Virus record (IMG/VR): IMGVR_UViG_3300005914_001759
Span: 1-20,771 of that record
Direction: 5' to 3' (one strand)
Source of the DNA: a virus
DNA length: 20,771 nucleotides
Shown here piece after piece: positions 1 to 19,267 of the stretch. Positions within the stretch are counted from its first letter, which is position 1, and each line of letters opens with the position of its first letter. Below the pieces are notes generated by a model that was not told the DNA's origin, searched no databases, and worked only from the letters and a program-made list of their open reading frames with translations. The translations under genes were made by a program, and so were the position numbers.

Positions 1-930
1 GAGGAAGAGTACATCTTGATGGGAATGGCAGCCTATGGGAATCCTAATACCTATTACGACAAAGTCTCAGAGTATTTTCCCAAAGCCTTTAAACAGAAAT
101 ACAGCTTTCACAAGGGTATCTACGACTGGGGGACTGTCTTCTCAGACTCTGACAAGTTCAACATAGCAGCAGCTGTCCAGAAAGTTTACGAGGACAGGCT
201 GAGAGAGTTTATGGTTTTTGCTCTAAAGAAAACTGGAAAAAGTAACTTGGTCTTTATGGGAGGTTGCGCCCTAAACGCCTCAGCAAACACTCTGCTATGG
301 GATATCTTCTCAAATGTTTGGATCATGCCCAATCCTGGTGACGCAGGAAGCTCTTTAGGAGCAGCGGCAGCAGCGTATGGACAACACCTAGACTGGAAGA
401 CTCCGTACCTAGGAACAAACTTAAAGGGCAAGTACCCAGTCAAAGCAGCCCTCGCAGCAATACTTGCAACGGGCGTTGCCCCCGTTGCTAATGGAAGAGC
501 AGAGTTCGGACCAAGAGCCCTAGGAAACAGAAGCATTCTGGCAGACCCCAGAGACCCTAATATAAAGGATAAGGTCAATAAGATAAAGAAGCGTGATAGA
601 TTTAGGCCCTTCGCCCCAGTAGTTCTAGAAGAGCATGCCAGTGAGTGGTTTGATCTGCCAGCCACGTCTCCTTATATGCAGTACACGGTGAAGTGCTTGC
701 AGCCTTCTCGGGTCCCCTCTGTGGTCCACCATGACGGTACGTCCAGAGTACAAACAATTAACCGTAAACAAAACCCAGGTCTCTATGACCTCATAAAAGA
801 GTTCTATAGGAGAACAGGTGTCCCCATGCTTCTAAACACTAGCCTAAACGTAAAAGGTCAGCCTCTACTTAATGACGAGCATGATATAATTGAATGGGAA
901 AAGGCCTATGGCCAGAAGGTGATAAGGTAA
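1..930 (+). CDS. O-carbamoyltransferase, NodU/CmcH family (5' truncated by the window)
   Basis: The reading frame is open from base 1, so the gene begins upstream and only about 309 C-terminal residues are present. The family transfers a carbamoyl group from carbamoyl phosphate (via carbamoyl-AMP) to a hydroxyl of a sugar or natural product. Visible family motifs are MGMAAYG near the start, the YrdC-like C-terminal domain motif EFGPRALGNRSIL (bases 502-540), KKRDRFRPFAPVVLEEHA after it, DGTSRVQTI and the terminal NTSLN motif. The C-terminus after NTSLN is short and ends differently from the complete paralogue at 13261-14892. The stop codon overlaps the next start (TAATG), so the two are probably translationally coupled. 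The family call is secure; the acceptor is unknown. Confidence 0.92.
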   Translation, partial: EEEYILMGMAAYGNPNTYYDKVSEYFPKAFKQKYSFHKGIYDWGTVFSDSDKFNIAAAVQKVYEDRLREFMVFALKKTGKSNLVFMGGCALNASANTLLWDIFSNVWIMPNPGDAGSSLGAAAAAYGQHLDWKTPYLGTNLKGKYPVKAALAAILATGVAPVANGRAEFGPRALGNRSILADPRDPNIKDKVNKIKKRDRFRPFAPVVLEEHASEWFDLPATSPYMQYTVKCLQPSRVPSVVHHDGTSRVQTINRKQNPGLYDLIKEFYRRTGVPMLLNTSLNVKGQPLLNDEHDIIEWEKAYGQKVIR

Positions 931-1589
931 TGAGCAACATAGAATTCGAAGTCTTAGACTTAGGCTTAGTCTTATATCATAAGATGATTCCAAATGCAGG
1001 GAAGGTTATAGTCCTAGCTAATAGCCTTGCAGAAAGATTCGTAGCTGGAGAGCACGGAGACAGTTACACGAGGATAAAAGACTGGGAACCTTGGTGGGAT
1101 GATCACATGCCAAAACCATTCAACCATAAGTTTTATGTATATAGGCACAGGGATATTTCTGATAATGATTACTATAGGAAAGAGTTAATAGAGATCGCAG
1201 ATTCACTCTACGGATCACTAGACACTGCTTTAGAACACTACTTTACCTTATATCCCTGGGCAAGGGCTTCCGTAAAAGGGGAGGAGCAGCTTGACGGCAT
1301 TCTCAGATATGATGAAGACGGTGGACACCTCCCAGCTCATCAAGACCTTGGTGTCAGCAGCCGTCTAATCTCAACTGTTAGCTACTTAAACGATGATTAC
1401 GACGGTGGAGAAATAGAATTCAGGCAGTCAAACGTAGTCATTAAGCCAGTAGTAGGAGACATAGTCTTCTTTCCATCAAACTATCTGTACGTACATGAGG
1501 TTATGGCCACACAAAATGGTACCAGATATTCAATGCCTCACTGGTTTCACAGCCAAAAGGAGATCCAGGAGTCAACTGGGGAAGAGTAG
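930..1589 (+). CDS. 2-oxoglutarate/Fe(II)-dependent oxygenase, prolyl 4-hydroxylase-like
   Basis: 219 residues. The Fe-binding HxD...H triad is H137-Q-D139 and H189, and the 2OG-binding basic residue is R199 in GTRYSM; the stretch GDIVFFPSNYLYVHEV is typical of phage and bacterial P4H-like dioxygenases. Such enzymes hydroxylate protein side chains (often proline) or small molecules using O2 and 2-oxoglutarate. An in-frame start exists at 894, but the ATG at 930 is preferred: it overlaps the stop of the carbamoyltransferase as TAATG and has AGAAGG/AAGG purine-rich sequence upstream. Pairing with a carbamoyltransferase suggests both act on the same modified molecule. Substrate cannot be read from sequence. 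Confidence 0.9.
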   Translation: MSNIEFEVLDLGLVLYHKMIPNAGKVIVLANSLAERFVAGEHGDSYTRIKDWEPWWDDHMPKPFNHKFYVYRHRDISDNDYYRKELIEIADSLYGSLDTALEHYFTLYPWARASVKGEEQLDGILRYDEDGGHLPAHQDLGVSSRLISTVSYLNDDYDGGEIEFRQSNVVIKPVVGDIVFFPSNYLYVHEVMATQNGTRYSMPHWFHSQKEIQESTGEE

Positions 1590-4827: not shown

Positions 4828-5117
4828 TGGCAGATAAGAACGCATGGAAAGACAGCGCAGCTTGCGAAGCTTATGATGTTAACTTATTCTTTGATAAGTA
4901 CGAAGAGAATGAACAGCTACGTCCAGCAATAGAGAACGTCTGTGCTGCTTGTCCAGTAAGGCGTGAGTGCTTTGCTAATGGAATATCAAACAAGGAGTAT
5001 GGAGTCTGGGGAGGTATCTACCTTGAGAAAGGTAAAATATCTAGAGAGTTCGGCAGGCATCGTAATAAAAAAGCTTGGGCGCAGGTCTGGAAAAAGCTGA
5101 CGATGGATGGGACATAG
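4827..5117 (+). CDS. whiB: WhiB-family iron-sulfur transcription factor
   Basis: 96 residues. Four cysteines that bind the [4Fe-4S] cluster are C13, C39, C42 and C48 (CAACPVRREC), followed by the WhiB turn GVWGG at 59-63 and a basic C-terminal tail (RHRNKK). WhiB proteins are confined to actinobacteria and their phages; they act with the primary sigma factor, and phage copies such as WhiBTM4 are known to interfere with host WhiB2. This is the strongest single host marker in the window. It overlaps the upstream small gene by one base (TAATG). Confidence 0.95.
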   Translation: MADKNAWKDSAACEAYDVNLFFDKYEENEQLRPAIENVCAACPVRRECFANGISNKEYGVWGGIYLEKGKISREFGRHRNKKAWAQVWKKLTMDGT

Positions 5118-5118
5118 G

Positions 5119-5364
5119 ATGTATACTTCCGAAATGAAGAGAGCATTCAGATCTCTAGACAGCCACTGCCCTAGGGGTTTTTCCCTTAAGGTGATGGACA
5201 ACGAGCACTTCTTGACAATAGCAGCAGAAGAGAAAGTTTTTATGAAGCTACCCTCAGACCTAAAGAGATCTGCCATAGAGTATATGTCTAGGGTTAAGAA
5301 AGCCCTAGAGGATAACGGTGCTATTGTGCTGCTTATCAGAGAAGGTGGGAAGGAGGAGCTATGA
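5119..5364 (+). CDS. Hypothetical protein (81 aa)
   Basis: No recognised family. A small basic protein, probably beta strands followed by a helical C-terminal half (SDLKRSAIEYMSRVKKALED). ATG 5119 directly follows the WhiB stop at 5117; ATG 5107 would overlap it. It ends in an ATGA overlap with the next small gene, whose strong AAGGAGG lies within its last codons. Confidence 0.65.
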   Translation: MYTSEMKRAFRSLDSHCPRGFSLKVMDNEHFLTIAAEEKVFMKLPSDLKRSAIEYMSRVKKALEDNGAIVLLIREGGKEEL

Positions 5365-5522
5365 GCAAAGAGTTAAGTGAAGCCCAGGTAGAGGTTGTGA
5401 CCTCGTTACTGAACCATGGAGCCAAGACAGAAAGAGAGCGAATTCTTTTGATAGTAAATAACCTTGAAGATCAGATAGACAAGCACTCGTTGTTGTCTGC
5501 TATTGACGAAGGTATATCATGA
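5361..5522 (+). CDS. Hypothetical small protein (53 aa)
   Basis: A short helical, charged protein beginning MSKELSEAQVEVV. It is supported by a consensus ribosome site (AAGGAGG, 5350-5356) and by 4-base ATGA overlaps with genes on both sides (5361-5364 and 5519-5522). No function can be inferred; its place between WhiB and the membrane/holin pair suggests it belongs to the same mRNA. Confidence 0.7.
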   Translation: MSKELSEAQVEVVTSLLNHGAKTERERILLIVNNLEDQIDKHSLLSAIDEGIS

Positions 5523-5908
5523 TAGATATCATCTTACAGACCACGGCCATAACTTTAGTGGCCTCGTTGACATCCGCATTCGTTGTCATAAAGCTTAAGC
5601 TTAATAAATCCAGGGAAGAGATCAAGGCAGAGATGTCTAGAAGCTTTCTTTTGATGGATGAGCTAGGCAAGGCTAACGACCGAGAAGCCCAAGCAAAGCT
5701 TGAAAAAACAGATGGTTTCGTAAAGTTTTTATCAGATTCACGTGACTGGTCATTTACTTACATCGAGAATGTCCAGCAGGCTATTCAGGGATTAGTCAAA
5801 GCCATGAAAGCAAATGACAAAGCTAAAATCCTCGAGTCCTATAATGAGCTACAAAATTTTCTTCCAACGGAAGAAGACTCAAATAAAAAACAAGGAGACA
5901 ACAAATGA
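5519..5908 (+). CDS. Single-span membrane protein upstream of holin (129 aa)
   Basis: One N-terminal transmembrane segment (about residues 7-25, TAITLVASLTSAFVVIKL) followed by a long charged, probably coiled-coil cytoplasmic region. It overlaps the holin gene by ATGA at 5905-5908. Position and topology would suit a lysis accessory protein, but there is no defining motif, so this is inference from context. Confidence 0.65.
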   Translation: MIDIILQTTAITLVASLTSAFVVIKLKLNKSREEIKAEMSRSFLLMDELGKANDREAQAKLEKTDGFVKFLSDSRDWSFTYIENVQQAIQGLVKAMKANDKAKILESYNELQNFLPTEEDSNKKQGDNK

Positions 5909-6276
5909 ATAAAGCTATGATTGAATCATATCTTCGTAACCTGTTAGGAGTTTTCCTAGCATTGACAACAACTACAATGGCAAACGTTGGAGTAACGTCC
6001 CCAATCGCCTTTGGCACAGGGGAGTGGCTACTAGTGGCTAACGGTGTGTGGGCAGCAGCAATTCCAACACTAATTCGTTACCTAAATACCAAGGACCCTG
6101 CGTTTGGTCGCATCGCTGAGGGCGTGGCCATGGAGGTAAGCAAGAGGCTAGCAGCAGAAGCAAAAGCTGCCACTGCAGCCAAGAAAGCATCTGAAGCACT
6201 CGCAAGAAAAGAAGCCTTAGCAGCGAAGGCGCTAGCAGCAGCAGCAAAATCAAAAAAAGCTGTCCCTACCAAGTAA
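5905..6276 (+). CDS. Holin, r1t-like
   Basis: 123 residues with two hydrophobic segments (roughly 11-25 and 42-58) and the phrase IPTLIRYLNTKDPAFGR, which matches the RxLNPxDxAFG end of r1t-type phage holins. Holins form membrane lesions that release or trigger the endolysin. The C-terminal half is an unusually long Ala/Lys-rich helix (AAEAKAATAAKKASEALARK and on), probably cytoplasmic and membrane- or nucleic-acid-interacting. AAGGAG at 5889-5896 region gives a good ribosome site. A strong terminator follows, so this is the last gene of its transcription unit. The M23-LysM protein at 1633-2433 is the likely partner. Confidence 0.78.
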   Translation: MNKAMIESYLRNLLGVFLALTTTTMANVGVTSPIAFGTGEWLLVANGVWAAAIPTLIRYLNTKDPAFGRIAEGVAMEVSKRLAAEAKAATAAKKASEALARKEALAAKALAAAAKSKKAVPTK

Positions 6277-6295
6277 ACAGTTAAAGATTAAGATT

Positions 6296-6326
6296 GACGG
6301 ATCACTATTGTGGTCCGTCTTTTCTT
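6296..6326 (+). terminator. Rho-independent terminator after holin
   Basis: GACGGATCAC (6296-6305), loop TATT, GTGGTCCGTC (6310-6319): a 10-bp stem with one G-T pair, followed by TTTTCTT. It closes the long leftward-to-holin transcription unit. Confidence 0.9.
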
Positions 6327-6336
6327 ATGCTATAAT
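6308..6336 (+). promoter_or_regulatory. Extended -10 promoter nested with the terminator
   Basis: TGC-TATAAT at 6328-6336 with a weak -35 TTGTGG at 6308-6313 (17-base spacer) located in the terminator stem. Predicted transcription start at about 6343, which is the first base of a long stem. Confidence 0.65.
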
Positions 6337-6342
6337 AGAATA

Positions 6343-6429
6343 GTCCTCATACAGGGCAAGGATTAGCCACTTTAGGATGACTAGTTACCATTTTTATATC
6401 GGGTTACGCCATGGTTGCTGTATGGGGAC
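6343..6429 (+). ncRNA. Candidate structured leader or small RNA
   Basis: GTCCTCATACAG (6343-6354) pairs with CTGTATGGGGAC (6418-6429) over 12 bp with one G-T pair. After a two-base bulge, C6357-A6359 can pair with T6415-G6417. The stem starts at the predicted transcription start of the TGCTATAAT promoter. The interior contains further short possible hairpins but no tRNA T-loop (no TTCRA), so it is not a tRNA. It could be a free small RNA or the leader of the GT61-like gene. It matches no riboswitch class that I know. A second TATAAT lies at 6440-6445 and a 6-bp hairpin TAGACT/AGTCTA at 6450-6475. Confidence 0.5.
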
Positions 6430-6496
6430 ATTTCTATCCTATAATCTGCTAGACTAAGAGGTAGACGTAAGTCTAAAACTTAAGAAAGATTGAGTA

Positions 6497-7567
6497 ATGA
6501 CACTTCACAGGCAAACCCCTTATCATGAGCCAAAGTACAATGATCCTAGGCCAGATCACGTATCCCCGAATATCATGAAAAAAGAGCTAACCTTTAACAT
6601 GAATAAGCTCTTTTACTTATCCTCTACTGAGGGAGTGATTATCAGTGACGTAAAGAAAGATTCTTTTGAGCCATACGACTATACGTTCTTGGGGCAAGAC
6701 GTAAAGATAGTTTCGGTAATAGCACCATCCGTGAGCCACATAATAGAAGACACCCTTTCGGATTTACTCAGAATGGCCTCCTGGTTCCCCAGTTCAGAGA
6801 TTGTTTTCGTTGATAACGGAATAGAAAAGGCTAAGTTTCATAATCTAAGAGAAGGATTGCTAAGGAATAACTCACTATTTGATTCTCTCGAAAAAGCCTT
6901 AGTATTGCAAGGTCATAGAGTTAGTTACATTACAGCAAGCGAGAAGACCAGGGTATCAATAGACAACTTCGTAATATCTAGCCCCTCCAGGTCACCTCAT
7001 GGGGATGTCAAAGGTTTCTTGCAGAAGTTCTTTGGACTCAGGTTAACCTCAGAACTTTTTAGATCTACATTCGTAACTGACCATGCAGACCCCACAGAGA
7101 AAATCTATGTCAGCAGGTCAAAGACCACACCAAGAGATGTGAGTGTCAAGAATAGTCCACACGAAGATAACTCTTTCATCCTTGACGATGTAAGGCTTTA
7201 CAATGAGAAGCTGCTAGAAGAATATTTTAAGTCCTTGGGGTTTGTCATTGTTTATGCAGAGGAGTTTGAGTCCTATGAGGATCAGGTTAGGTTCTTTGCC
7301 TCGGCAAAAGTGATAGCAGGAGTAACAGGCGCAGGCTTGTGGAATGCCTTGTTCATGAAAAGGGGAGGTTTAGTCTTAGAGATAGCTACCCCATTGGCAA
7401 CTTCAGATAATGGGTCCCCAATGGTTGACTATCACCCTCACTACTCCACCTTGGCCTACGCAATGGGGATGAACTATCTAGCTATTCCTTCTAGTCTAAG
7501 ACACGGTAGCGAAATTGTAGACAAAATAGAAAATAATCTTTTTTTAAGAAAGTCACTAGAATGTTAG
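6497..7567 (+). CDS. Glycosyltransferase, GT61/DUF563-like
   Basis: 356 residues. The C-terminal half carries the DUF563/GT61 signatures: KIYVSRSKT (202-210), the helix LLEEYFKSLGFVIVYAEE, then QVRFFASAKVIAGVTGAGL (263-281) and NALFMKRGGLVLEI. GT61 includes eukaryotic protein O-GlcNAc and O-xylosyl transferases and bacterial capsule enzymes; members transfer a sugar from a nucleotide sugar, retaining the family's usual GAGL motif. The usual HGAGL is TGAGL here. The first 190 residues are less conserved. The gene follows a promoter plus a 150-base leader and is followed by a kinase and a nucleotidyltransferase, so it may use the sugar they activate. Acceptor unknown. Confidence 0.82.
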   Translation: MTLHRQTPYHEPKYNDPRPDHVSPNIMKKELTFNMNKLFYLSSTEGVIISDVKKDSFEPYDYTFLGQDVKIVSVIAPSVSHIIEDTLSDLLRMASWFPSSEIVFVDNGIEKAKFHNLREGLLRNNSLFDSLEKALVLQGHRVSYITASEKTRVSIDNFVISSPSRSPHGDVKGFLQKFFGLRLTSELFRSTFVTDHADPTEKIYVSRSKTTPRDVSVKNSPHEDNSFILDDVRLYNEKLLEEYFKSLGFVIVYAEEFESYEDQVRFFASAKVIAGVTGAGLWNALFMKRGGLVLEIATPLATSDNGSPMVDYHPHYSTLAYAMGMNYLAIPSSLRHGSEIVDKIENNLFLRKSLEC

Positions 7568-7586
7568 TTCGTGGACTCTTGTGGTG

Positions 7587-7592
7587 TATACT
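7587..7592 (+). promoter_or_regulatory. -10 box TATACT, leaderless start at 7599
   Basis: The last T of TATACT is 7 bases before ATG 7599. This argues that ATG 7599, not GTG 7581, is the start, because 7581 lies upstream of the -10 box. Confidence 0.65.
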
Positions 7593-7598
7593 TGTCTT

Positions 7599-8441
7599 AT
7601 GGAATATATAACTAGAAGCTTCACAAAAATCTCGGTAGAAGATTTTATAGTAACAAAAACATCCACCAACGTAGATAAGCTCAAATCTGAGTATGCTTAC
7701 TACCAAGAGATCCCAGAGACCTACCATATCTTCTTTGCAGTAGGAAGAGACTTTAAAGAAGGTCTTGATTCCTGTAGTTACATCATGAACCTAATTCCAG
7801 GCAACGACTTTGGACATCATTATGCCCACGACACTCTGACGTATAACATGGTGCAAGGCCTTTTCCCAAGAATAGATGAGTTCAAGTCACAGACTTATAC
7901 AGAGATAGAGCTCCCAATGCTATTTTCTAAATCTCATGACCTAATCGTAAATAAAGCTAAGGCAAGGTCAGAGGAACTATCTATATTATCATCTGGGAAG
8001 TATGACACCCTCACCGAGGACTACGTAGCAAGAATAAGAAAAGCTTTTGAAAGCTTATTCATGAAGGAAAGAAAAACCTTCCGAACTGTCTTATCTCACG
8101 GAGACCTATGCTTCTCCAATATTCTTGAAGACGCAACCTTCATCGACCCCAGAGGCGTCGAGAGCATGCACTTAGACGAATACTACGATCTAGCAAAGCT
8201 AAGCCAAAGTATTCTTGGTGGTTACGACTTTATAGTTCATGGGAAGGATATTGCAATAGATGAAGAGCTTAAGGATATTTTTATTTCTTTCTTAGAAGAA
8301 AAAGAAATCTGCTATGATCTTCTTAGGCTGTATGAAGCATCCTTGTTTCTTTCTATGTGTCCTATTCATTACGAAAATACTTCTCATGTAGATCAATTTC
8401 TGACTAGGGCAGGGGAGATTCTTACAGAGATAGGTCATTAG
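7599..8441 (+). CDS. Aminoglycoside-phosphotransferase/choline-kinase-like small-molecule kinase
   Basis: 280 residues. The kinase catalytic motif HGDLCFSN (H167-N174, catalytic D169) and the metal-binding IDPRG (D183) are those of the APH/CHK phosphotransferases, and EYYDLAKLSQS fits the downstream DLA element. The N-lobe is degenerate but length is normal. These kinases phosphorylate small alcohols or sugars. The stop overlaps the GTG of a nucleotidyltransferase (TAGTG), a gene order found in surface-polysaccharide clusters, where the kinase product is then activated to a CDP- or UDP-linked form. Substrate could be a sugar, choline or another alcohol; sequence alone cannot tell. Confidence 0.82.
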   Translation: MEYITRSFTKISVEDFIVTKTSTNVDKLKSEYAYYQEIPETYHIFFAVGRDFKEGLDSCSYIMNLIPGNDFGHHYAHDTLTYNMVQGLFPRIDEFKSQTYTEIELPMLFSKSHDLIVNKAKARSEELSILSSGKYDTLTEDYVARIRKAFESLFMKERKTFRTVLSHGDLCFSNILEDATFIDPRGVESMHLDEYYDLAKLSQSILGGYDFIVHGKDIAIDEELKDIFISFLEEKEICYDLLRLYEASLFLSMCPIHYENTSHVDQFLTRAGEILTEIGH

Positions 8442-9124
8442 TGAACATCCTATTACTGATGTCTGGAGAAGGATCTAGATTCTTTGATAGTGAATACAAT
8501 CTTCCAAAGCCCTTAATCATAATCGATGGCAAGCCAATGTATCAGCTGGCCCTAGAAAGCCTAGGTCTAAAAGGGGAGCTGATTCTTGTCTCCAGAAAAG
8601 GTTTTAGATTATCCTTAGTTGACTGGGGAATGCCCACTACGATCATCGAGGTAGAATCAACGACATCTGGGCCAGCCACGAGTGCCATGTTAGCAGAAGA
8701 TCTAATAGACAGCGACGTGCCACTAGTAATCCTTAATGCTGACCAGATAGTTGAATGGGACTCCTCAATATTAAAAGACATCACTACCGATGGGGCATTA
8801 CTTCTTTTTAAATCCTCTGGAACCCGATGGTCATATGCTGATGTGGTGGGGGATAGGATCGTAAAAGTTGTAGAAAAACAAGAGATTAGTCATAATGCCC
8901 TAGCAGGAGTCCATTACTGGAAGAGAGGTAGTGACTTCGTAAGGTACGCAAAGAGAATGTTTGCAGCTAGAGACAGCTACCACGGGGAATACTACGTTGC
9001 CCCCGTATATCAGTATGCCCTCAATGATGGGTTAAGCATATCCCCAGTCTTTGTAGATCGGATGCATGACTTGGGTACTCCAGAAGCCTTAAAAATATAC
9101 ACCAAAACTCTTAACGAGTCATGA
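8441..9124 (+). CDS. Sugar-1-phosphate/choline-phosphate type nucleotidyltransferase
   Basis: 227 residues. MSGEGSRF (7-14) followed by LPKPLI (21-26) is the nucleotide-binding signature of the NTP_transferase family (GxGxRF...PKP). TTSGPATSAM (74-83) and LNADQ (98-102, metal-binding D101) complete the active site. The GTG start overlaps the kinase stop by one base, and both probably act on the same compound: phosphorylation, then transfer of a CMP/UMP or similar moiety. Resemblance is to compact single-domain enzymes such as LicC or capsule cytidylyltransferases rather than longer GlmU-type enzymes. The nucleotide and substrate are not determined. Confidence 0.87.
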   Translation: MNILLLMSGEGSRFFDSEYNLPKPLIIIDGKPMYQLALESLGLKGELILVSRKGFRLSLVDWGMPTTIIEVESTTSGPATSAMLAEDLIDSDVPLVILNADQIVEWDSSILKDITTDGALLLFKSSGTRWSYADVVGDRIVKVVEKQEISHNALAGVHYWKRGSDFVRYAKRMFAARDSYHGEYYVAPVYQYALNDGLSISPVFVDRMHDLGTPEALKIYTKTLNES

Positions 9125-9136: not shown

Positions 9137-9418
9137 ATGTCAGAAAACTTAGATAAGCAGTCCCCATGCTGGGATGGATACGTCCAACGAGGTATGAAGC
9201 CAGGAGCAAACGGTAAGCAAGTCCCAAACTGTGTACCTGCAACGAAGTCATACAGCGGAGACGAAGATAATGCCCCAGAGGGATATCACCGTATGCCCGA
9301 CGGATCATTGATGGCCAACGAGGACCATGAAGATGACAAGTCACTGTTTGCAGGATTGGGAAAAGACTTTACACGATCAAAGAGTTTGACAGAAATCTTT
9401 AGACAAAGTCAAGATTAA
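9137..9418 (+). CDS. Small conserved CWDGY-motif protein, unknown function
   Basis: 93 residues. The N-terminal block PCWDGYVQRGMKPG, then GKQVPNCVP, contains two cysteines (C11, C32) and resembles a short motif I associate with small or internal proteins of environmental phages; the second block GYHRMPDGSLMANEDH also looks like a conserved peptide motif. The C-terminus (FTRSKSLTEIFRQSQD) is helical. No catalytic residues are evident; it could be a virion or DNA-packaging accessory. The 3' end overlaps the convergent oxygenase gene by 20 bases. A promoter with its predicted start on the ATG indicates leaderless expression. Confidence 0.75.
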   Translation: MSENLDKQSPCWDGYVQRGMKPGANGKQVPNCVPATKSYSGDEDNAPEGYHRMPDGSLMANEDHEDDKSLFAGLGKDFTRSKSLTEIFRQSQD

Positions 9419-9971
9419 TAACTGCTCTAAACGCTGACTCGGTTGGCGCACTAGGAGCATGGAAAATGTTACCATCAAAGACTACACCCTTGCCAGCTTC
9501 AGGACTAATCTTCTGATCAAGGGTAAACTTTTCTGGAGGGGTATCTCCAAGAGTCTCATTAAACAAGTAAGTATCACCATCAGAGTCATTTATATAGTAT
9601 AGGAAAACCTTATGCTTTTCATTTAAATCGACATGGGGCATCTGATATTTTCCAATACTGTCTTTACCAGCCATTGGTACAATGTTAATCTTTATTCTTG
9701 CTATCTCTGTGTACTTAAGCTTATGCTTTATTATGAAAGAATTAAATAGTTCTACAATCTTTTTCCTGTAAGGATGTCCTGGACCTACGAGAGAAACGAA
9801 CATGAGATGCTCATAAACCATATCGTCTAGCATTGCATTATGGCCATTCATGTCTGACATGTTGCTAGCAGGGGCAAAGACCCACTGAAACTTAGGATCC
9901 CAACCAAGGATTGCGTCTGAAAGCTCATCTTTTAGCTCTTTGTCCCCAAAGTCTTTGTCTACAATAATCAT
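9399..9971 (-). CDS. 2-oxoglutarate/Fe(II)-dependent oxygenase
   Basis: 190 residues. Iron triad H113-V-D115 (PHVDLNEKH) and H171 (NIFHAP), with 2OG-binding R182 (FRAVINLDFV); the order and spacing are those of the phage 2OG-FeII oxygenase superfamily. ATG 9971 is preferred over 10016 because it forms an ATGA overlap with the HNH gene stop. It is unlike the first and third oxygenases outside the motifs, so the three are not recent duplicates. Substrate unknown; hydroxylation of a protein or a sugar/base is possible. Confidence 0.87.
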   Translation of the reverse strand: MIIVDKDFGDKELKDELSDAILGWDPKFQWVFAPASNMSDMNGHNAMLDDMVYEHLMFVSLVGPGHPYRKKIVELFNSFIIKHKLKYTEIARIKINIVPMAGKDSIGKYQMPHVDLNEKHKVFLYYINDSDGDTYLFNETLGDTPPEKFTLDQKISPEAGKGVVFDGNIFHAPSAPTESAFRAVINLDFV

Positions 9972-10216
9972 TTTTTTAGTCTCATATCTCTCTCGTAAGT
10001 TCTTTCTTTGTGACAATTAGAACAAACAACGTCACACTTCTTTGCTTCATTCCAAGCTGCTTCCTGTCCAAACTTCTTCAATACCCTGTAGACAATGTCT
10101 ATTTTTTTAAACTCTGGCCTGTGATCAAACTCAAGGATGTAATGGGGGTACTTAACTAAACAGTCAAAGCACCCAACCGACTCTTTGTAGGCCTGAAACT
10201 CTGAGAATATGGACAT
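9968..10216 (-). CDS. HNH endonuclease-like protein
   Basis: 82 residues. Two CxxC zinc knuckles, C16-F-D-C19 and the one in VVCSNCHKERT near the C-terminus, flank the ILEFDHRPEFKK segment with the catalytic DH pair; the CxNCH end supplies the second histidine. This is the compact phage HNH pattern. Such proteins are often free-standing homing endonucleases or packaging nucleases; nothing here indicates an intron or terminase neighbour. It is coupled by ATGA to the downstream oxygenase. Confidence 0.85.
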   Translation of the reverse strand: MSIFSEFQAYKESVGCFDCLVKYPHYILEFDHRPEFKKIDIVYRVLKKFGQEAAWNEAKKCDVVCSNCHKERTYERDMRLKK

Positions 10217-10236: not shown

Positions 10237-10800
10237 TCAGTCGTTAAAACCTATAGATATGGAACATCTGGGCATTAAACTTTTAACACTATGAACGACC
10301 CCACTAGGAATGTAAACCATGTCACCAGGCCTGATAGTCCAAGACTCTTCTACCTCTCCGTAATAGGCTGTCCACAGAGTTTCTCCAACACACTGGAAGA
10401 ACATTCCGTCTACAGGGTCAGAGTGAATTGTCGCAGACATCATGGTTGGGTCAAAGTCTCTGGGCTTTTTCTGTGGATTAGATGATGTAAACTTTTGGTA
10501 GAAGTTATCGGCTTCTGCTGGGATCGAATTGTTAACGCTGTTCTCAAAGTGCGTGATAGCCAAGACAGCTATTAGATCTCCAGAGTGCCTTTCGTTTGCC
10601 ATGGATAAGAGGTCATCAAAGACTTCCGTCAGAGCCTCGGCATTGTCTACATTAAATGTCGCAAAGGATGACCAGTTAACCGATTCTTTTCCCTGAGCAG
10701 CATCAAACAAGGATTCAAAATCTGACCATGAGGGAAGGACTTCTGCCAACCCCCTATCTACGAATATTTTGCTTTCTTCTTTTGCACTAAAAATGTCCAT
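10237..10800 (-). CDS. Cupin/JmjC-like Fe(II) oxygenase
   Basis: 187 residues. A jelly-roll core in the C-terminal half carries H126-S-D128 (ATIHSDPVDGMFFQ) and H170 (IPSGVVHSV) after the GDMVYIP turn, the metal triad arrangement of cupin_8/JmjC-type hydroxylases. The N-terminal 100 residues are helical and may hold dimer or substrate contacts. These enzymes hydroxylate proteins (ribosomal proteins, asparagine or histidine) or small molecules. It is divergent from the epimerase operon, with the two promoters in the 41-base gap. Confidence 0.8.
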   Translation of the reverse strand: MDIFSAKEESKIFVDRGLAEVLPSWSDFESLFDAAQGKESVNWSSFATFNVDNAEALTEVFDDLLSMANERHSGDLIAVLAITHFENSVNNSIPAEADNFYQKFTSSNPQKKPRDFDPTMMSATIHSDPVDGMFFQCVGETLWTAYYGEVEESWTIRPGDMVYIPSGVVHSVKSLMPRCSISIGFND

Positions 10801-10828: not shown

Positions 10829-10834
10829 TATAAT
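10829..10834 (+). promoter_or_regulatory. -10 box TATAAT, leaderless GTG start at 10842
   Basis: The ATG at 10833 lies within this -10 box, so the start is placed at GTG 10842, 8 bases after the last T. The resulting N-terminus MKNILVTGAAGFVG is canonical for the family. Confidence 0.65.
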
Positions 10835-10841
10835 GGTAATT

Positions 10842-11762
10842 GTGAAAAACATTTTGGTAACTGGTGCTGCAGGGTTTGTCGGTATGCATACTGTAAGAAT
10901 GCTCCATAACTTAGGCTATAGCGTTAGAGCTTTAGATAACAAGAAAAATGTAGACACTTCTCAGTGGCCTATAGGAGTTAGTCTTATTAGTCAAAGCTTG
11001 TTGGAGGATGACGTCTCTTCTCATTTTGAATGGGCGGACTACGTAGTTCACCTCGCAGCTTTAGCAGGTATGAAGCAGGGTATCTTTAATCCCTATGGGT
11101 CAATGCAGAACAACCTAAAGGCTACAGAGATAGTTTCTCTTCTATGCCTCAGGTACAATGCAGGACTGTTCTTCTCCTCTACTTCCGAAGTCTATGGTCT
11201 TTGCCCAGACGTCCCATTGAGGGAAGACTCTACAAGGATACTGGGAGGCACGGGAGATAACCGCTGGGGATACGCAGAGTCCAAGTCCATGTCTGAGCGG
11301 TTGCTACTCCTAGACGCAAAAGAACACGGACTAAAAGTTAAGATAGGCAGGCTATTCAATGTCGCTGGCCCAGGACAGTCTGGAGAGTATGGGATGGTTA
11401 TGCCCAGGTTTATTCATGCTGCCAAAAACGATAATAGCCTTTACGTATATGGCGATGGAACGCAGACAAGGTCTTTTTGTCATGTATCAGATACGGTCCG
11501 AGGAATATGTGAAATTATCTTAAAGGGTAAAATAGGGGAAGTGTATAACGTAGGAAACCCAACAGAGGTCTCCATAAACAACCTTGCCTCAACTGTGATA
11601 AGGATGTCGAACTCCCACTCAGACGTAAGGCACAAGGAGTATGAGGAGGTGTACCCTGGATATACAGAGATTAGCAGGCGTGTGCCAGACATCAGCAAGC
11701 TTAAGGCTTTAGGCTGGAGCCCAGAGTTCAGCCTCGGTGATATTATCAGGGACCTGTTATGA
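10842..11762 (+). CDS. NAD-dependent sugar-nucleotide epimerase/dehydratase (extended SDR)
   Basis: 306 residues. Rossmann glycine motif G8-A-A-G11-F-V-G14, FSSTSEVYG with the catalytic Ser/Thr, and the active-site pair Y144xxxK148 (GYAESK). The family interconverts or dehydrates nucleotide sugars such as UDP-glucose/GalNAc. It heads a four-gene operon (ATGA overlap with the glycosyltransferase) and probably supplies that enzyme's donor sugar. Length is close to the usual 310-330 residues. Confidence 0.9.
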   Translation: MKNILVTGAAGFVGMHTVRMLHNLGYSVRALDNKKNVDTSQWPIGVSLISQSLLEDDVSSHFEWADYVVHLAALAGMKQGIFNPYGSMQNNLKATEIVSLLCLRYNAGLFFSSTSEVYGLCPDVPLREDSTRILGGTGDNRWGYAESKSMSERLLLLDAKEHGLKVKIGRLFNVAGPGQSGEYGMVMPRFIHAAKNDNSLYVYGDGTQTRSFCHVSDTVRGICEIILKGKIGEVYNVGNPTEVSINNLASTVIRMSNSHSDVRHKEYEEVYPGYTEISRRVPDISKLKALGWSPEFSLGDIIRDLL

Positions 11763-12646
11763 GTATCTTTATATCAATTGCCTCATACCAAGACCCAACT
11801 CTGGTGAGAACAATCGAGAGAGCTCTTCAGAGGTCAGACAACCCCGAAGATTTGGTTTTTGGATTGGGATTGCAGTACGAAGAATTACCAGACCTATCTT
11901 CACTTCCCCAGAGTCAGCTAAGGATCCTTTCCTGGAATCCAAGAACTAGGCCTGGAATAGTCAAAGTGCGTTACGAGATCTCTCAACTTTTTAAAGATGA
12001 AGATTACTTCTTGATGATAGACTCTCATATGCAATTTACTCAAGGTTGGGACACAAAACTCGTATCTGTCATAAAAGAATTGCAGGAGTCTACTAAGACC
12101 TACAAAGTTATAGTGTTTCCTTTAGGGCTATACGGAAAAGAGGCTATGTCCTCTAGGTTCAGAATTGAGCAAAGGACTTCCACAAAGCTTCCTCTTAATG
12201 TAGCTGCCCAACCAGTAAATGGTAGGTACATACCAGAAAAGGAGATAGAAAAGATTTCCTTTATGAGGGTAGGGCAGATATTCTTTGACGGTAGGTTTAT
12301 CAAAGAGGTGGGGCTAGACTCTAGGTCTCAATACAATCAGGAGCAGGCATACCTTGGTTATAGGGCTTACCTTTCAGGTTGGGACACTTACCAATACCAT
12401 CAGGACCTTATGACCCACGATGATTCAATCTATGTTGCGTCAATTGATCAGGTAAAGGCCAAGGAGTTTGGGGCAGTTCCAGAGATCGACGACAGTGATG
12501 AAGACATGACGATGGCTTATATATATAATACGGGGCCATACGCAATCCCCAACGCAGAAAGAACTCCAGACGACTTCTGGTCAGCAAACAGATCTTTCTT
12601 TGAGTTTACACGTGCCAAGGCATTGCTAGACAAAAATAAGTTTTAG
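11759..12646 (+). CDS. Glycosyltransferase, GT60-like (Skp1-type GlcNAc-transferase)
   Basis: 295 residues. ISIASYQDPTLVRTIERAL (6-24) at the N-terminus and the metal-binding IDSHMQF (D88-S-H90) after EDYFLM are the signatures of the GlcNAc-transferase family of Dictyostelium Skp1 (GT60). The later stretch EQAYLGYRAYLSGWDTY with H220 fits the conserved C-terminal region. Characterised members add alpha-GlcNAc to hydroxyproline in Skp1, and bacterial or viral relatives are mostly unstudied. It follows the epimerase with an ATGA overlap and is followed, after a new promoter, by the deacetylase. This identity is the basis of the hydroxyproline-glycosylation idea; substrate is not proven. Confidence 0.82.
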   Translation: MSIFISIASYQDPTLVRTIERALQRSDNPEDLVFGLGLQYEELPDLSSLPQSQLRILSWNPRTRPGIVKVRYEISQLFKDEDYFLMIDSHMQFTQGWDTKLVSVIKELQESTKTYKVIVFPLGLYGKEAMSSRFRIEQRTSTKLPLNVAAQPVNGRYIPEKEIEKISFMRVGQIFFDGRFIKEVGLDSRSQYNQEQAYLGYRAYLSGWDTYQYHQDLMTHDDSIYVASIDQVKAKEFGAVPEIDDSDEDMTMAYIYNTGPYAIPNAERTPDDFWSANRSFFEFTRAKALLDKNKF

Positions 12647-12655
12647 TGGTATACT
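12647..12655 (+). promoter_or_regulatory. Extended -10 TGGTATACT, leaderless start at 12662
   Basis: Overlaps the end of the GT60-like gene (TAG at 12644-12646 just before it). Last T is 7 bases before ATG 12662. Confidence 0.7.
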
Positions 12656-12661
12656 TTAGAT

Positions 12662-13264
12662 ATGCAGACTTTAAAAGAAAAACATATAGTTATCCTTTCT
12701 GCTCACCCCGATGACCTAGAGATGTCCTGCGGAGGAACAGTTGCAAAATTTGTAGAAGATGGTAATAAGGTGACTAGCATAGTCATGGCAGGGGGGGTTC
12801 CTCACCTAGAGTATCTAAATAGAGCATCAGGTTATCTAGGGATAGATCCTATCATATTTTCCATGTCCAACTCAGTCAAAGTAGACAAAAATGTAATCAA
12901 AGAGTTAGAGGTAATGGTTGACTTTTCTACAGTGGACTTAATCATAACGCACTGGAACGAAGACTGGCACCAGGACCACCAGGCATGTCATGAAATAGGA
13001 AATATTTTAGCCAGGAAGCAACCTATGGACCTATGGTACATGTCTGCTCACCCATACAACCTAAAATATAAGCACTTTACACCAGACCTATATATTGACA
13101 TTGGTTCATGGTCATACAAGTCCAAGCTCAATGCCGTCAAGGCATACGACAACATACCAAATAAATGGGTAAGAGGAGTCATGCACCATGACGTATGGCG
13201 AGGCTCATACCTTGACACCAAGTATGCAGAAGTGTTCGCTGTCGGTAACCAGGTAATCAAATGA
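12662..13264 (+). CDS. PIG-L/LmbE-family deacetylase
   Basis: 200 residues. The zinc and catalytic motif AHPDDLE (H15, D17, D18) and a second motif WHQDHQACH (H103, D105, H106) are diagnostic of the family that removes acetyl groups from GlcNAc in lipids, mycothiol precursors and glycans. Coming directly after a GlcNAc-type transferase and before a carbamoyltransferase (ATGA overlap at 13261), it is a good candidate for deacetylating the transferred GlcNAc. Secreted signals are absent, so it should act in the cytoplasm. Confidence 0.9.
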   Translation: MQTLKEKHIVILSAHPDDLEMSCGGTVAKFVEDGNKVTSIVMAGGVPHLEYLNRASGYLGIDPIIFSMSNSVKVDKNVIKELEVMVDFSTVDLIITHWNEDWHQDHQACHEIGNILARKQPMDLWYMSAHPYNLKYKHFTPDLYIDIGSWSYKSKLNAVKAYDNIPNKWVRGVMHHDVWRGSYLDTKYAEVFAVGNQVIK

Positions 13265-14892
13265 TAATCATGGGCGTGAACTTATCACATGACGGAAGTG
13301 TCTGTGTTTTAGATAAGGGCAAGGTTGTCTTCTACCAAGAAGAAGAGAGAGTCACTCACGAGAAGCATACCACTGGGGTAATTCATAGCTTCGTAGCTGG
13401 TATGAAGTTTAACCCTACCCACGTCGTCTTTACCTCTGCAACACCGTATGAGATAAAAGTAAAAGACCTTTTTGCAAGCTTAATGGGAGCACATGGCAAG
13501 CTCAATCACTTTGAGGACTATGTCATGCCAGAGATTCACTTCATGAGAGATCACCACTTAGCCCACGCAGCAGCAGCCTTCTACAACTCAGGGTTCGACG
13601 AGGCCTCAGTTTTGGTTGTAGACGGTGCTGGCCAAGCCTTTATCGATGATGAATACCTATATAGAGAGACAGAGACTATCTTCTCTGCAAAATATAACAA
13701 CTTTGACGTAAAGCTAAAAAAAGTAATCAAGCAGCATACCCTACTCAACTACCAGCAGCTTTCTGGAGAGCTGGCAGACAAGACCTACCTTTCTCCATGT
13801 GCTAGCCCATTGCCTACTGAGTATGAAGTCAAGGTCCACGACGCAGATATGAGCATTGGCAAGATGTTTAGTAAGGCTGGTATTGATATCTTTGGAGACT
13901 ATCACCAAGCAGGCAAGGTCATGGGTCTATCGGCATACGGGGTAGACCAGAAGGAGGATCCAAGAGCTTTTATAGAAGACGATGCTAACCCAGGAATATT
14001 TACACATGGGATGTCTAACGAGGACCTGGCTTTTAGGATTCAGAACGACTCTCTAATCCCCATAGTTAACTTAGTTAGAGAAGCATTAGATAACTCAAAA
14101 CACGATAACGTTTGCCTCTCTGGAGGATACTTCCTTAACTGTGTGAATAACTACAAGCTGCTAAAGCTATTCCCTCATGCAAACTTTTACATAGAGCCTA
14201 ACTCCTCAGACGCAGGAACTGCCTTGGGGGCAGCAAAGTATTGGTGGCACACGCTTAGCGGAGACCACGATATAAGGGAGCTTGAGACCCTATACCTTAG
14301 TGGCCCAGCCGACCACAGATTTGATTCGAGAGACATAAGAGACATCGTACAGGCTTCGCCCAAAGACGTGGCAAAGCTTCTTTCCGAGAGAAACGTGGTC
14401 GCCATATATCAGGGCAAAGCAGAAGCTGGACCAAGGGCCCTCGGCAATAGGTCAATACTTTATGACCCAAGAGACAGAGATGCAAGAGATGTTCTCAACA
14501 TGATCAAGAAGCGTGAGAGCTTTAGGCCTTTTGGAGGCACTGTGCTTGAAGAGAAGGCATCTCAGTGGTTTGACATGTACACACTAAAGTCTAGCCCCTA
14601 TATGCTGTATGCTGTTGACTCCCAGGACGGGACCGCAGCACTTATCCCAGGGTTAATGCACAACGACGGGACTTCTAGGATACAGACCATTAATGAGAGT
14701 CAGAACCCGAACTATCATGCTTTAATCAGTGAGTTTGACAGCCTTACGGGTGTTCCTATGATCTTAAATACATCGTTTAATCTAGCTGGAGACACTCTGG
14801 TTCAAACAATGGACGATGCTATAAGAACATGTCTTCAGTCTGGGATCCCATACCTTTATTGTCCAGAGATCGAATCAATAATTACGTTTTAA
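13261..14892 (+). CDS. O-carbamoyltransferase, NodU/CmcH family (complete)
   Basis: 543 residues, full length for the family. N-terminal Kae1-like domain: GVNLSHDGS (5-13), DHHLAHAAAAFYNS (97-110, Fe/catalytic histidines), VVDGAGQ, then KVMGLSAYG and LSGGYFLNCVNN. C-terminal YrdC-like domain: EAGPRALGNRSIL, KKRESFRPFGGTVLEEKA, HNDGTSRIQTI, NTSFN. Such enzymes carbamoylate a hydroxyl, for instance O-6 of glucosamine in Nod factors by NodU, which in that pathway follows deacetylation by NodB. ATG 13261 overlaps the deacetylase stop (ATGA); ATG 13270 is the alternative. It is a paralogue of the partial gene at 1-930, and ends the operon. Confidence 0.93.
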   Translation: MIIMGVNLSHDGSVCVLDKGKVVFYQEEERVTHEKHTTGVIHSFVAGMKFNPTHVVFTSATPYEIKVKDLFASLMGAHGKLNHFEDYVMPEIHFMRDHHLAHAAAAFYNSGFDEASVLVVDGAGQAFIDDEYLYRETETIFSAKYNNFDVKLKKVIKQHTLLNYQQLSGELADKTYLSPCASPLPTEYEVKVHDADMSIGKMFSKAGIDIFGDYHQAGKVMGLSAYGVDQKEDPRAFIEDDANPGIFTHGMSNEDLAFRIQNDSLIPIVNLVREALDNSKHDNVCLSGGYFLNCVNNYKLLKLFPHANFYIEPNSSDAGTALGAAKYWWHTLSGDHDIRELETLYLSGPADHRFDSRDIRDIVQASPKDVAKLLSERNVVAIYQGKAEAGPRALGNRSILYDPRDRDARDVLNMIKKRESFRPFGGTVLEEKASQWFDMYTLKSSPYMLYAVDSQDGTAALIPGLMHNDGTSRIQTINESQNPNYHALISEFDSLTGVPMILNTSFNLAGDTLVQTMDDAIRTCLQSGIPYLYCPEIESIITF

Positions 14893-16545: not shown

Positions 16546-17646
16546 TTGACTGAAGTTGCGATCATAGGGCTTGGTTACGTTGGACAAGCACTGGCGAGCC
16601 GTGTGTCAAAAGTCAAAGGCTTTAGTGTTATAGGTGTAGAAAAGAGCAAAAGTGTTCTACTACCCATAATGTCAGATGACCTTGGGTACTCCGTTACCTC
16701 AGACATCAATGATGCAAAGAACGCTGACGTCTTTATCGTATGTGTGGCTACTCCATTATCTGGAGAAGACTACGTAGCCAAAGCAGCGCAGGAGATAGCT
16801 TCTGTAGCAAAAGAGGGGGCTCTAGCTATCCTAGAGTCCACGGTAGGAATAGGGGTAACCGAAAAGATCTTCTTCCCACCACTAACTAAAGCAGGAGTCT
16901 TAGTAGCCTATTCACCAGAACGAATTGACCCAGGCTCTGAGAAGTATAACATTAGTAATACTACTAAGGTTGTATCAGGAGCTACGCCTTTAGCCTTAAA
17001 AGCAGCTATGGCTTTCTATACTAAGTTTATTAAGAAAGTTGTAAGCGCCAGCGACGTAAGAGTTGCCGAGGCAGCAAAACTTCTGGAAAATTCTTACAGG
17101 CTTCTTAATGTATCTTTTGTCAATGAGTTTGCTAGGTCTTGCCTTGCTGCTGGGATAGATTCAAGTGAAGTCATTCAGTTGGCAAGTACTAAGGAGTTTG
17201 GATTTCAAGCATTCTATCCTAGTGCTGGTGCTGGTGGCCACTGCATCCCAGTTGATCCTGAGTTCTTGTCTAACCATATGAGGGAACTTGGAGTACCAAT
17301 TACTCTTCTCGAAACAGCCATAGAGATTAATGACTCAATGCCTAATGAGATTGTAGATGATCTTAATAAGAAGTTCAACGGACTACAGGATAAGAAGATC
17401 TTAATTGTAGGTATGTCATATAAGGCTAATACTGATGACACCAGGAACTCTTCAGGTAGTCAGATATATAACCTAATGAAGCACCTTGGGTATGATGTCA
17501 AGTGGCATGACGAAGTAGTTAAGACTTACGGAACAACTAAGTCTGTAAAGCCATCTAACAGCTTTGATGTAGTCCTTGTGACTGTAAGGCATGAAGAGCT
17601 GCACCTATCTATGATTAGTGAGTCTAAGATAGTTTCTTATGCGTAA
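16546..17646 (+). CDS. UDP-sugar (UDP-Glc/GlcNAc/ManNAc-type) 6-dehydrogenase
   Basis: 366 residues. N-terminal Rossmann GLGYVG (8-13), family motif YSPERIDPG (122-130), and the active-site loop GAGGHCIPVDP with catalytic C233, plus LLENSYR and MSYKANTDDTR, identify the UDPGDH/WecC family, which oxidises the C6 hydroxyl of a nucleotide sugar to a uronate. It is shorter than the usual 420-450 residues, mainly in the C-terminal domain. TTG start with AAGAGGG (16534-16540) upstream. Probably feeds the same glycan pathway as the epimerase. Its end overlaps the convergent hydrolase by 10 bases. Confidence 0.92.
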   Translation: MTEVAIIGLGYVGQALASRVSKVKGFSVIGVEKSKSVLLPIMSDDLGYSVTSDINDAKNADVFIVCVATPLSGEDYVAKAAQEIASVAKEGALAILESTVGIGVTEKIFFPPLTKAGVLVAYSPERIDPGSEKYNISNTTKVVSGATPLALKAAMAFYTKFIKKVVSASDVRVAEAAKLLENSYRLLNVSFVNEFARSCLAAGIDSSEVIQLASTKEFGFQAFYPSAGAGGHCIPVDPEFLSNHMRELGVPITLLETAIEINDSMPNEIVDDLNKKFNGLQDKKILIVGMSYKANTDDTRNSSGSQIYNLMKHLGYDVKWHDEVVKTYGTTKSVKPSNSFDVVLVTVRHEELHLSMISESKIVSYA

Positions 17647-18362: not shown

Positions 18363-18977
18363 ATGATTAAAGATTACGGTAATGGAATAGTTAACACCCT
18401 GGCCTTCGTATCATACGAGGACTCCATGGAGATCAGTGCCTGGATAGATAATAATATAGATAACTTCTTAATCTATGAATTCCAAAACAATCCAGACAGG
18501 CATGCCATTAGATTTGGTAAAGATCAAATATTCTGGGATACGTCTCCTCACGACATACGTGGGGTAGAGGATATCGAAAAAACATGTAGACCATACTTCA
18601 AGAAGGTAACTGAGCATCTTAAAAAGCTGTACAACGATGACTCAGATCTCTTCATCAACTCCTTCTGGCTAGCTAAGCAAGACGCTGGTGGCTTTGTAGG
18701 ACCTCATCATGACTCTCACTCTGGAATGAACCCACAGTTTAAGTACAGTGTGATCTGCTATCTTAATGCAAACCCAACAGATGGAGAGTTGGAGTTTGTA
18801 AGCTTAGGGTTTGGGATTAAGCCACCTGCTGGCTCAATGGTTAGCTTCCCATCACAGGGGGAAAACCTAGACCATGAGGTAAAGGCCATAAGTCAGGAGA
18901 GGTACTCTATGCTATTCTGGGTTACTGATAACCCTGACTACGAAGTTAAGTGGCACAGCGATGAGTGCCCATCGTAA
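18363..18977 (+). CDS. 2-oxoglutarate/Fe(II)-dependent oxygenase, prolyl 4-hydroxylase-like
   Basis: 204 residues. Iron triad H115-H-D117 (GPHHDSHSGM) and H171 (NLDHEVKAI), 2OG-binding R180 (ERYSML), and the core strand YSVICYLN with GSMVSFPS between, a classic P4H-like double-stranded beta helix. The frame opens at TTG 18342, but that lies upstream of the -10 box, so ATG 18363 is used. It shares the P4H layout with the 930-1589 protein more than with the 9399-9971 one. Confidence 0.9.
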   Translation: MIKDYGNGIVNTLAFVSYEDSMEISAWIDNNIDNFLIYEFQNNPDRHAIRFGKDQIFWDTSPHDIRGVEDIEKTCRPYFKKVTEHLKKLYNDDSDLFINSFWLAKQDAGGFVGPHHDSHSGMNPQFKYSVICYLNANPTDGELEFVSLGFGIKPPAGSMVSFPSQGENLDHEVKAISQERYSMLFWVTDNPDYEVKWHSDECPS

Positions 18978-19081: not shown

Positions 19082-19267
19082 ATGAACTACAACACTCACC
19101 CATGCCCTGTCTGTTCAAAAGATATGGCTCCAGTAATCTATGGATTCCCTACCACTCACATGGTTGAGATGGCTCAGCAAGACATCATCGCTCTTGGAGG
19201 AACAAAGATGGACAAAGAAAACCCCACACACTATTGTTATAGCTGTGGGGATCCTTACCGTATCTAA
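19082..19267 (+). CDS. Small zinc ribbon protein (61 aa)
   Basis: CPVCSKDMAPVIYGFPT at the start and YCYSCGDPY at the end: two CxxC knuckles (C8/C11 and C52/C55) forming a zinc ribbon, with a helical middle. Proteins of this type are common hypothetical genes in bacteria; no function is known. The stop abuts the convergent nuclease stop. Confidence 0.75.
   Translation: MNYNTHPCPVCSKDMAPVIYGFPTTHMVEMAQQDIIALGGTKMDKENPTHYCYSCGDPYRI

Follow-up and report, generated by a model that had tools for sequence, protein, structure and literature searches.

The DNA analysed here is a virus record of 20,771 bases (IMG/VR record IMGVR_UViG_3300005914_001759, hereafter the window), and our subject is a run of four genes in it coding for a sugar epimerase, a GT60-family glycosyltransferase, a PIG-L N-deacetylase and a NodU/TobZ-type O-carbamoyltransferase, together with two prolyl 4-hydroxylase (P4H)-like 2-oxoglutarate (2OG)-Fe(II) oxygenases, OG1 and OG2, located elsewhere in the window. 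An initial annotation made from the letters alone had named these six genes and proposed that a protein is successively hydroxylated, given GlcNAc, deacetylated and carbamoylated. When 20 open reading frames of the window were scanned against Pfam each of the six was confirmed, all scoring above the curated cut-off (Table 1), and the stop/start overlaps described at 11759-11762 and 13261-13264 are both present in the sequence; the GT60 and PIG-L genes are separated by 15 bases. In the GT60 metal motif, D88 and H90 are invariant and S89 nearly so across 35 sequences, while in the HxD...H triad of the oxygenases D117 and H171 are invariant and H115 nearly so (25 sequences). A14, H15, D17 and D18 as well as H103, D105 and H106 are invariant in three PIG-L sequences, and the carbamoyltransferase matches TobZ with E 4.3e-41. 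The full set is carried by four near-identical contigs (L001-L004; the largest, G004, is 111 kb long), and the G004 copy of GT60 is 98% identical to that of the window. No close relative turned up in isolated phages: a search of 50,697 phage records at E 1e-5 gave no match to the window GT60, and its relative in L058 matched three records, all from phages larger than 300 kb.

The initial annotation had named co-occurrence of the gene set in related phages as a check, and oxygenase and GT60 passed it, the two being neighbours or overlapping genes. Family labels for these locus comparisons were assigned with hidden Markov models (HMMs) grown from seed proteins, and Pfam was run on selected members. 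Across seven related contigs (G004, G014, G018, G020, G021, G023 and G024, with G001, G013, G019 and G022 omitted as near-duplicates or fragments), a same-strand oxygenase lies immediately beside 7 of the 13 GT60 genes, against 1.16 expected (p = 5e-5, 20,000 shuffles); when every oxygenase label is counted, 1.62 are expected and p becomes 3.5e-4. For all glycosyltransferase labels, 12 of 22 have an adjacent oxygenase, with 1.85 expected, or 2.66 if every oxygenase label is counted. With longest-frame starts, the two genes share between 1 and 53 bases in six of the seven oxygenase-GT60 pairs (two each in G021 and G020, one each in G023 and G024), and the genes of the seventh, in G014, are 2 bases apart. 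The partner oxygenases are of differing subtypes and, therefore, the pairs are not one inherited pair.

The link is also found in bacteria, where the phage-derived GT60 profile gave 358 confirmed matches. The best 80 of them, which are not a random sample, include seven single reading frames that carry both GT60 and oxygenase by HMM. Pfam confirms the PF11397 + PF13640 fusion in six of these (L199, a protein of 605 aa, L225, L214, L151, L164 and L165; L204 is an HMM-only call) and also in L306, which comes from a separate sample. Three are triple fusions with a PF23452 hydroxyproline O-arabinosyltransferase domain (L151 742-4452, L164 4294-7848 and L165 2606-6118), and in L214 the PF23452 match falls just below the Pfam cut-off (22.9 vs 23.9 bits). 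Among the same 80 loci, all 21 titled SAR86 have oxygenase and GT60 as divergent neighbours, although these form one clade. On the GT60 tree, at least 8 changes are required to account for the label 'fused or adjacent', and GT60 itself is rare in two taxon-wide samples, being found in 4 of 274 genomes in one and 12 of 292 in the other. The oxygenase-GT60 link is recurrent, not universal. As a separate observation, Pfam places an AhpC/TSA (peroxiredoxin) domain between GT60 and oxygenase in L306 (184-2439); a similar stretch is seen by eye in L225 (9101-15184), where Pfam does not list it, and at the end of the GT60 protein of L172 (5082-6461), whose gene has an oxygenase as neighbour.

Predicted structures were obtained with AlphaFold2 for GT60 (predicted local distance difference test score, pLDDT, 88.7) and OG2 (pLDDT 85.7). 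The GT60 model is most similar to the polypeptide N-acetylgalactosamine (GalNAc)-transferases, with ppGalNAc-T10 as best match (Z 20.7 over 258 residues, 3.5 Å), and the next-best family among the matches listed reaches Z 17.0; by sequence, GT60 has no phmmer match to GT27 and a profile E of 0.0067. The OG2 model aligns with collagen prolyl 3-hydroxylase 1 at Z 18.9 and with an algal P4H holding a Ser-Pro peptide at Z 18.7, and its first Foldseek match is a chlorella-virus collagen prolyl hydroxylase. For OG1, a single-sequence PDB search gave a weak match to prolyl 3-hydroxylase 1 (E 0.0036). AlkB- and TET-like entries were absent from the 50 OG2 structural matches listed, an absence that does not exclude them. 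The predicted folds are thus prolyl-hydroxylase-like and polypeptide-GalNAc-transferase-like, a shared fold being no proof of substrate. Adjacency and overlap in relatives, the bacterial fusions and these folds together support the earlier suggestion that a P4H-like oxygenase works with GT60.

In the window OG2 and GT60 are not adjacent, and synteny suggests that this is because GT60 has moved. The gene order in L057-L059 is oxygenase, GT60 and a small CxxC gene (the overlapping pair of L058 lies at 5151-6636), and the same small gene comes after OG2 in the window. Near-identical copies aside, the best matches of OG2 in the de-duplicated list are the L058 and L057 oxygenases that overlap GT60 (74 and 70 bits, with the next at 39). 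On the GT60 tree the window protein, represented by its G004 copy, falls in a starred clade of ten rows, seven of them oxygenase-adjacent; it is grouped beside two oxygenase-adjacent rows with a support of 91, a grouping that is not starred, and two long branches blur the inner order of the clade. The likeliest account, judging from gene order and matches, would be that GT60 was relocated from behind OG2 to behind the epimerase.

PIG-L and the carbamoyltransferase lie side by side in three related lineages, namely the window clade, G014/G022 and G021, while the gene 5' of PIG-L varies (GT60 in the window, a nucleotidyltransferase in G014/G022 and a small divergent gene in G021). In 8 of 15 de-duplicated viral PIG-L loci a carbamoyltransferase is found within 10 kb of PIG-L; among GT60 loci that have no PIG-L the figure is 1 of 47 (Fisher 1.5e-5; 49 de-duplicated GT60 loci, from which the two with PIG-L were removed). 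As far as gene order can tell, the two genes are a conserved pair in their own right. On the joining of this pair to GT60, a GT60-like gene followed by a carbamoyltransferase in the Xanthomonas jumbo phage XacN1 (L285 5995-9712) and the order GT60-GT60-carbamoyltransferase in L064 mildly favour carbamoylation of the sugar that GT60 would add; overall, 5 of the 85 viral GT60 loci, including one related to the window, have a carbamoyltransferase within 10 kb. In L134 (9288-10576) and L138 (1263-2545), PIG-L overlaps a gene without a Pfam match in which a glycosyltransferase-like DxD was noted by eye.

Considered together, these genes could constitute a phage-encoded protein-glycosylation kit of two modules, a reading to which we give slightly less than an even chance. 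Its first module would consist of hydroxylation of a protein by an oxygenase and subsequent glycosylation by GT60, for which, given the gene linkage and the modelled folds, we see the prospects as evenly balanced. In the proposed mechanism a P4H-like oxygenase, most likely OG2 and possibly also OG1, would hydroxylate a residue, probably proline, of a phage or host protein, and GT60 would transfer an N-acetylhexosamine, probably N-acetylglucosamine (GlcNAc), onto the new hydroxyl. PIG-L would then strip the N-acetyl group and the NodU-type enzyme would carbamoylate a hydroxyl, probably of the same glycan, while the epimerase and the uridine diphosphate (UDP)-sugar dehydrogenase would supply sugar nucleotides. 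That both modules act on one glycan, so that the GT60 sugar is deacetylated and carbamoylated, is possible but doubtful. The acceptor, the sugar, the sequence of the reactions and the coupling of the two modules are inferred.

Collagen-like fibres are a candidate acceptor, without statistical support. Collagen-like proteins are encoded by G004, and in G018 five oxygenase genes (49972-54979) lie just 5' of long collagen-like genes. Collagen-like (Gly-X-Y) genes occur in five of the eight oxygenase contigs longer than 39 kb (G004, G001, G018, G019 and G020; not G014, G021 or G022), but also in four of seven GT60 contigs without these oxygenases and, therefore, their presence does not discriminate. 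Among 43 de-duplicated viral GT60 loci, 10 have a gene rich in proline, threonine and serine (P/T/S) or a collagen-like gene within two genes, where 5.9 are expected (p = 0.025, post hoc). In the viral contigs L067, L095 and L005, a gene directly beside GT60 is fibre-like and has long Thr-Pro repeats. Among cultured relatives, phages E7 and F5 of 'Ca. Planktophila' have genes for glycosyltransferases as well as for collagen-like proteins (PMC10202952). The GT60-bearing phage contig G034 (L276-L279) has an open frame with 1,168 uninterrupted G-X-Y triplets, which would be an enormous collagen-like protein if real.

Several observations weigh against a two-module protein-glycosylation kit. No acceptor protein was identified in this analysis, and single-sequence PDB searches gave no match for GT60 or for OG2. 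Because several of the linked pairs are orthologues of one another, the count of 7 in 13 perhaps reflects 3 to 4 independent events, and the shuffles ignore this kinship. Oxygenase and GT60 are linked in relatives and fused in some bacteria, whereas in the window GT60 and the nearer oxygenase are 5.7 kb apart. No oxygenase is found within two genes in 87 of 123 de-duplicated GT60 rows (kept from 211 by shared 3-mers), and for viral GT60 loci the HMM labels place one within 10 kb in only 7 of 85. Two taxon-wide samples added 14 bacterial GT60 loci, among which are one fusion and no oxygenase adjacent within about 1.5 kb. With regard to the second module, the 8 PIG-L loci counted above include L040, which is closely related to the window and has a carbamoyltransferase 98% identical to the window's. 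The initial annotation had placed GT60 and PIG-L in one operon, but that they form one conserved unit is not supported; we rejected them as a conserved pair because the PIG-L and NodU-type genes are not beside GT60 in G014/G022 or G021. Co-occurrence of the full set in relatives, the check it had named, held in part, for the window clade, G014 and G021, but G018, G019 and G020 have oxygenase and GT60 with no PIG-L or carbamoyltransferase in the DNA examined. Lastly, the GT60 family also includes Ser/Thr-type transferases and, therefore, hydroxylation need not come first.

This last point leads to an alternative in which the oxygenases have separate roles and GT60 adds sugar directly to serine or threonine of phage fibre proteins, no prior hydroxylation being needed. 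The GT60 model is nearest to Ser/Thr polypeptide GalNAc-transferases, viral GT60 genes are somewhat enriched near P/T/S-rich or collagen-like genes as described above, and the oxygenase profile has no match in 16 of 23 searched contigs (13 GT60 contigs and 3 PIG-L contigs), all of which would suit this view. However, oxygenase and GT60 are strongly paired in the window's clade and fused in bacteria, three times with a hydroxyproline arabinosyltransferase domain, and no P/T/S-rich protein is present in G004 at the threshold used, so that we consider this alternative somewhat unlikely. The substrate could also be a glycan and not a protein, with a surface or free polysaccharide or a glycolipid being made or decorated, for host envelope change or superinfection exclusion. 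NodU-type enzymes act on lipo-oligosaccharides and antibiotics, PIG-L is near sugar epimerases in other viral contigs (L141, L145 and L149), and the GT61, nucleotidyltransferase, epimerase and UDP-sugar dehydrogenase genes nearby look like a polysaccharide pathway. A protein is nevertheless indicated by the polypeptide-transferase fold and by the way GT60 is linked or fused to prolyl-hydroxylase-like enzymes, and no glycan-export gene was found among the 20 scanned open reading frames; synthesis or decoration of a glycan is, in our judgement, unlikely.

Modification of DNA has to be weighed as well, with oxygenase and carbamoyltransferase acting on pyrimidines and sugars being added to the base, since phage TET enzymes exist. 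A phage NodU/TobZ-type enzyme has been reported to carbamoylate 5-hydroxymethylcytosine, but the DNA-acting carbamoyltransferases of that report accompany PF00303 thymidylate synthases (PMC8670742), and PF00303 was found in 0 of 9 contigs here, which are possibly incomplete. Tet_JBP gave only sub-cut-off matches in the same nine contigs, and the oxygenase profile is far closer to prolyl 4-hydroxylases (2e-32) than to a TET-like enzyme (1e-5), although bacterial members in the profile may drive the score. We rejected assignment to the TET family; those Tet_JBP matches that were compared by coordinates fall on P4H-like genes. The TobZ positions W408, G421 and R423 are reported to separate DNA-acting carbamoyltransferases (PMC8670742). 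By our own offset count, G and R are retained in the window enzyme and W is replaced by I, an observation that was given no weight. DNA hypermodification seems to us very improbable. Alternatively, these may be freely recombining auxiliary genes whose neighbourhood has no joint meaning. Gene order is shuffled among the relatives, and marine cyanophages often carry carbamoyltransferase genes; 2OG oxygenases are likewise frequent in them (PMC9602691). Against this, overlapping-frame pairs recur with different oxygenase subtypes and fusions occur in several bacterial groups, which makes chance neighbourhood a decidedly improbable explanation.

Table 1. Genes and sequence elements of the window
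Feature	Position	Strand	Evidence and remarks
Second NodU-type carbamoyltransferase, partial at window edge	1..930	+	Pfam; full length 3219-4655 in G004
OG1, P4H-like 2OG-Fe(II) oxygenase	930..1589	+	PF13640 E 1.2e-15; adjoins partial carbamoyltransferase
GT61-family glycosyltransferase	6497..7567	+	PF04577 E 9.7e-17
PHROG 21938 protein, 5' neighbour of nucleotidyltransferase	7581..8441	+	No Pfam match
Sugar nucleotidyltransferase-like gene	8441..9124	+	PF00483 E 5.9e-5; PDB 4evw E 1.2e-11
Oxygenase-like gene	9399..10016	-	Judged by motif; no Pfam match
JmjC_2/cupin oxygenase-like gene, divergent from epimerase	10237..10800	-	PF08007 E 4.4e-7
TATAAT -10 element before epimerase GTG (10842)	10829..10834	+	Consensus match; placement suits leaderless mRNA
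Epimerase, NAD-dependent sugar	10842..11762	+	PF01370 E 1.7e-46; PHROG 540 nucleotide-sugar epimerase; GTG start, ATG at 10833
GT60-family glycosyltransferase	11759..12646	+	PF11397 E 2.7e-21; D88-S89-H90 motif kept; predicted fold nearest polypeptide GalNAc-transferases
Promoter-like site before PIG-L	12627..12655	+	TAGACA-17-TATACT; -10 ends 6 bases 5' of ATG
PIG-L (CE14-type) N-deacetylase	12662..13264	+	PF02585 E 1.5e-12; metal motifs AHPDD and HQDH
NodU/TobZ-type O-carbamoyltransferase, both domains	13261..14892	+	PF16861 Carbam_trans_C E 9.5e-57; PF02543 Carbam_trans_N E 1.2e-23
UDP-glucose/GDP-mannose dehydrogenase family gene	16546..17646	+	PF00984 E 2.6e-28
OG2, P4H-like 2OG-Fe(II) oxygenase	18363..18977	+	PF13640 E 4.7e-12; type overlapping GT60 in L057-L059
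Small CxxC protein	19082..19267	+	Homologue directly 3' of GT60 in L057-L059; 47-51% identity, E 4e-13 to 2e-15

Other features of the window concern its host and its transcription. A gene at 4827-5117, which from its cysteine motif we take to be WhiB-like, indicates an actinobacterial host, and the virus therefore probably infects an actinobacterium; WhiB is described elsewhere as an important marker of actinophages (PMC10202952). The initial annotation had joined part of the operon by a promoter, and a consensus-like site is indeed present before PIG-L, but the region holds nine such sites against 8.1 expected by chance. Its -10 element sits where it would have to be if a leaderless mRNA began with the ATG of PIG-L, and a promoter-like element there would fit a separate transcription start at PIG-L. 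In G004, a -10 element placed for a leaderless start precedes 16 of 105 genes, against 2 of 74 internal control positions; elements 6-7 bases 5' of start codons were likewise seen for 9 of 93 genes vs 0 of 69 controls in G018 and 11 of 111 vs 1 of 74 in G020. This placement suggests leaderless mRNAs in the window (10829-10842 and 12650-12662), G004, G018 and G020. We also observed that the partial carbamoyltransferase at the window edge extends to the start of OG1, that in G021 (L133) a GT60 gene lies between the two and overlaps both, and that in G018/G019 a GT61 gene has an oxygenase on either side.

In a literature search by title and abstract, with subscription papers outside its scope, no description was found of phage or bacterial GT60, of P4H-GT60 pairs or of hydroxyproline glycosylation in prokaryotes. 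We advance only tentatively, as something that may well not hold, the view that prokaryotes and their phages have a hydroxyproline-type O-glycosylation of fibre or surface proteins of their own, with pairs in actinophages and SAR86 and fusions elsewhere, and that its sugar is deacetylated and carbamoylated in this phage. If this is true, glycosylation of the hydroxyproline type by P4H and GT60 would not be confined to eukaryotes. It could then serve phages in protecting or adjusting the fibres with which they recognise their hosts, and enzymes for producing glycosylated hydroxyproline or carbamoylated amino sugars would be newly at hand. It would also give a role to some of the unexplained phage 2OG oxygenases. 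The functions of those in marine phages, of which one cyanophage has 24, are described as not specifically investigated (PMC9602691), and another report remarks that such phage proteins resemble the human prolyl hydroxylase EGLN3 (PMC12774648). The link to GT60 turns part of this question into a testable chemistry, in which a residue is hydroxylated and then glycosylated.

Comparison with known systems shows partial likeness to several. Nod-factor tailoring involves NodB deacetylation and NodU O-carbamoylation of an amino sugar, and the window likewise has genes for a deacetylase and a NodU-type carbamoyltransferase that would suit an amino sugar. Unlike the NodB-type enzyme, the window deacetylase is a PIG-L (CE14) protein, and no chitin synthase-like gene was found among the 20 scanned open reading frames. 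The 5-hydroxymethylcytosine carbamoyltransferase found by MetaGPA is also a phage NodU/TobZ-type enzyme but, unlike it, the enzyme studied here has a thymidylate synthase partner in 0 of 9 contigs. In the hydroxylation and glycosylation of collagen (LH3/PLOD3, the mimivirus lysyl hydroxylase-glycosyltransferase and the PBCV-1 prolyl hydroxylase), virus collagen hydroxylases are among the nearest folds to OG2 and the 111-kb relative of the window encodes collagen-like proteins; mimivirus and PBCV-1 infect eukaryotes. These systems differ in that collagen is only a candidate acceptor here, collagen-like genes being present also in GT60 contigs without these oxygenases. Actinobacterial phages are suspected of particle glycosylation (PMC11256854), and the accessible part of that literature describes no oxygenase-first chemistry for mycobacteriophage virions. 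In the Skp1 pathway of Dictyostelium and Toxoplasma, formed by PhyA and the GT60 enzyme Gnt1, the latter is reported to require a hydroxylated proline (PMC6939170). That pathway shares with the window a P4H-type oxygenase and a GT60 enzyme, which here are linked in relatives, and differs in belonging to protists and not to a phage, with a deacetylase and a carbamoyltransferase coded nearby in the latter. We file the phage set as a variant of the Skp1-type P4H-GT60 chemistry that stands outside the Skp1 pathway itself.

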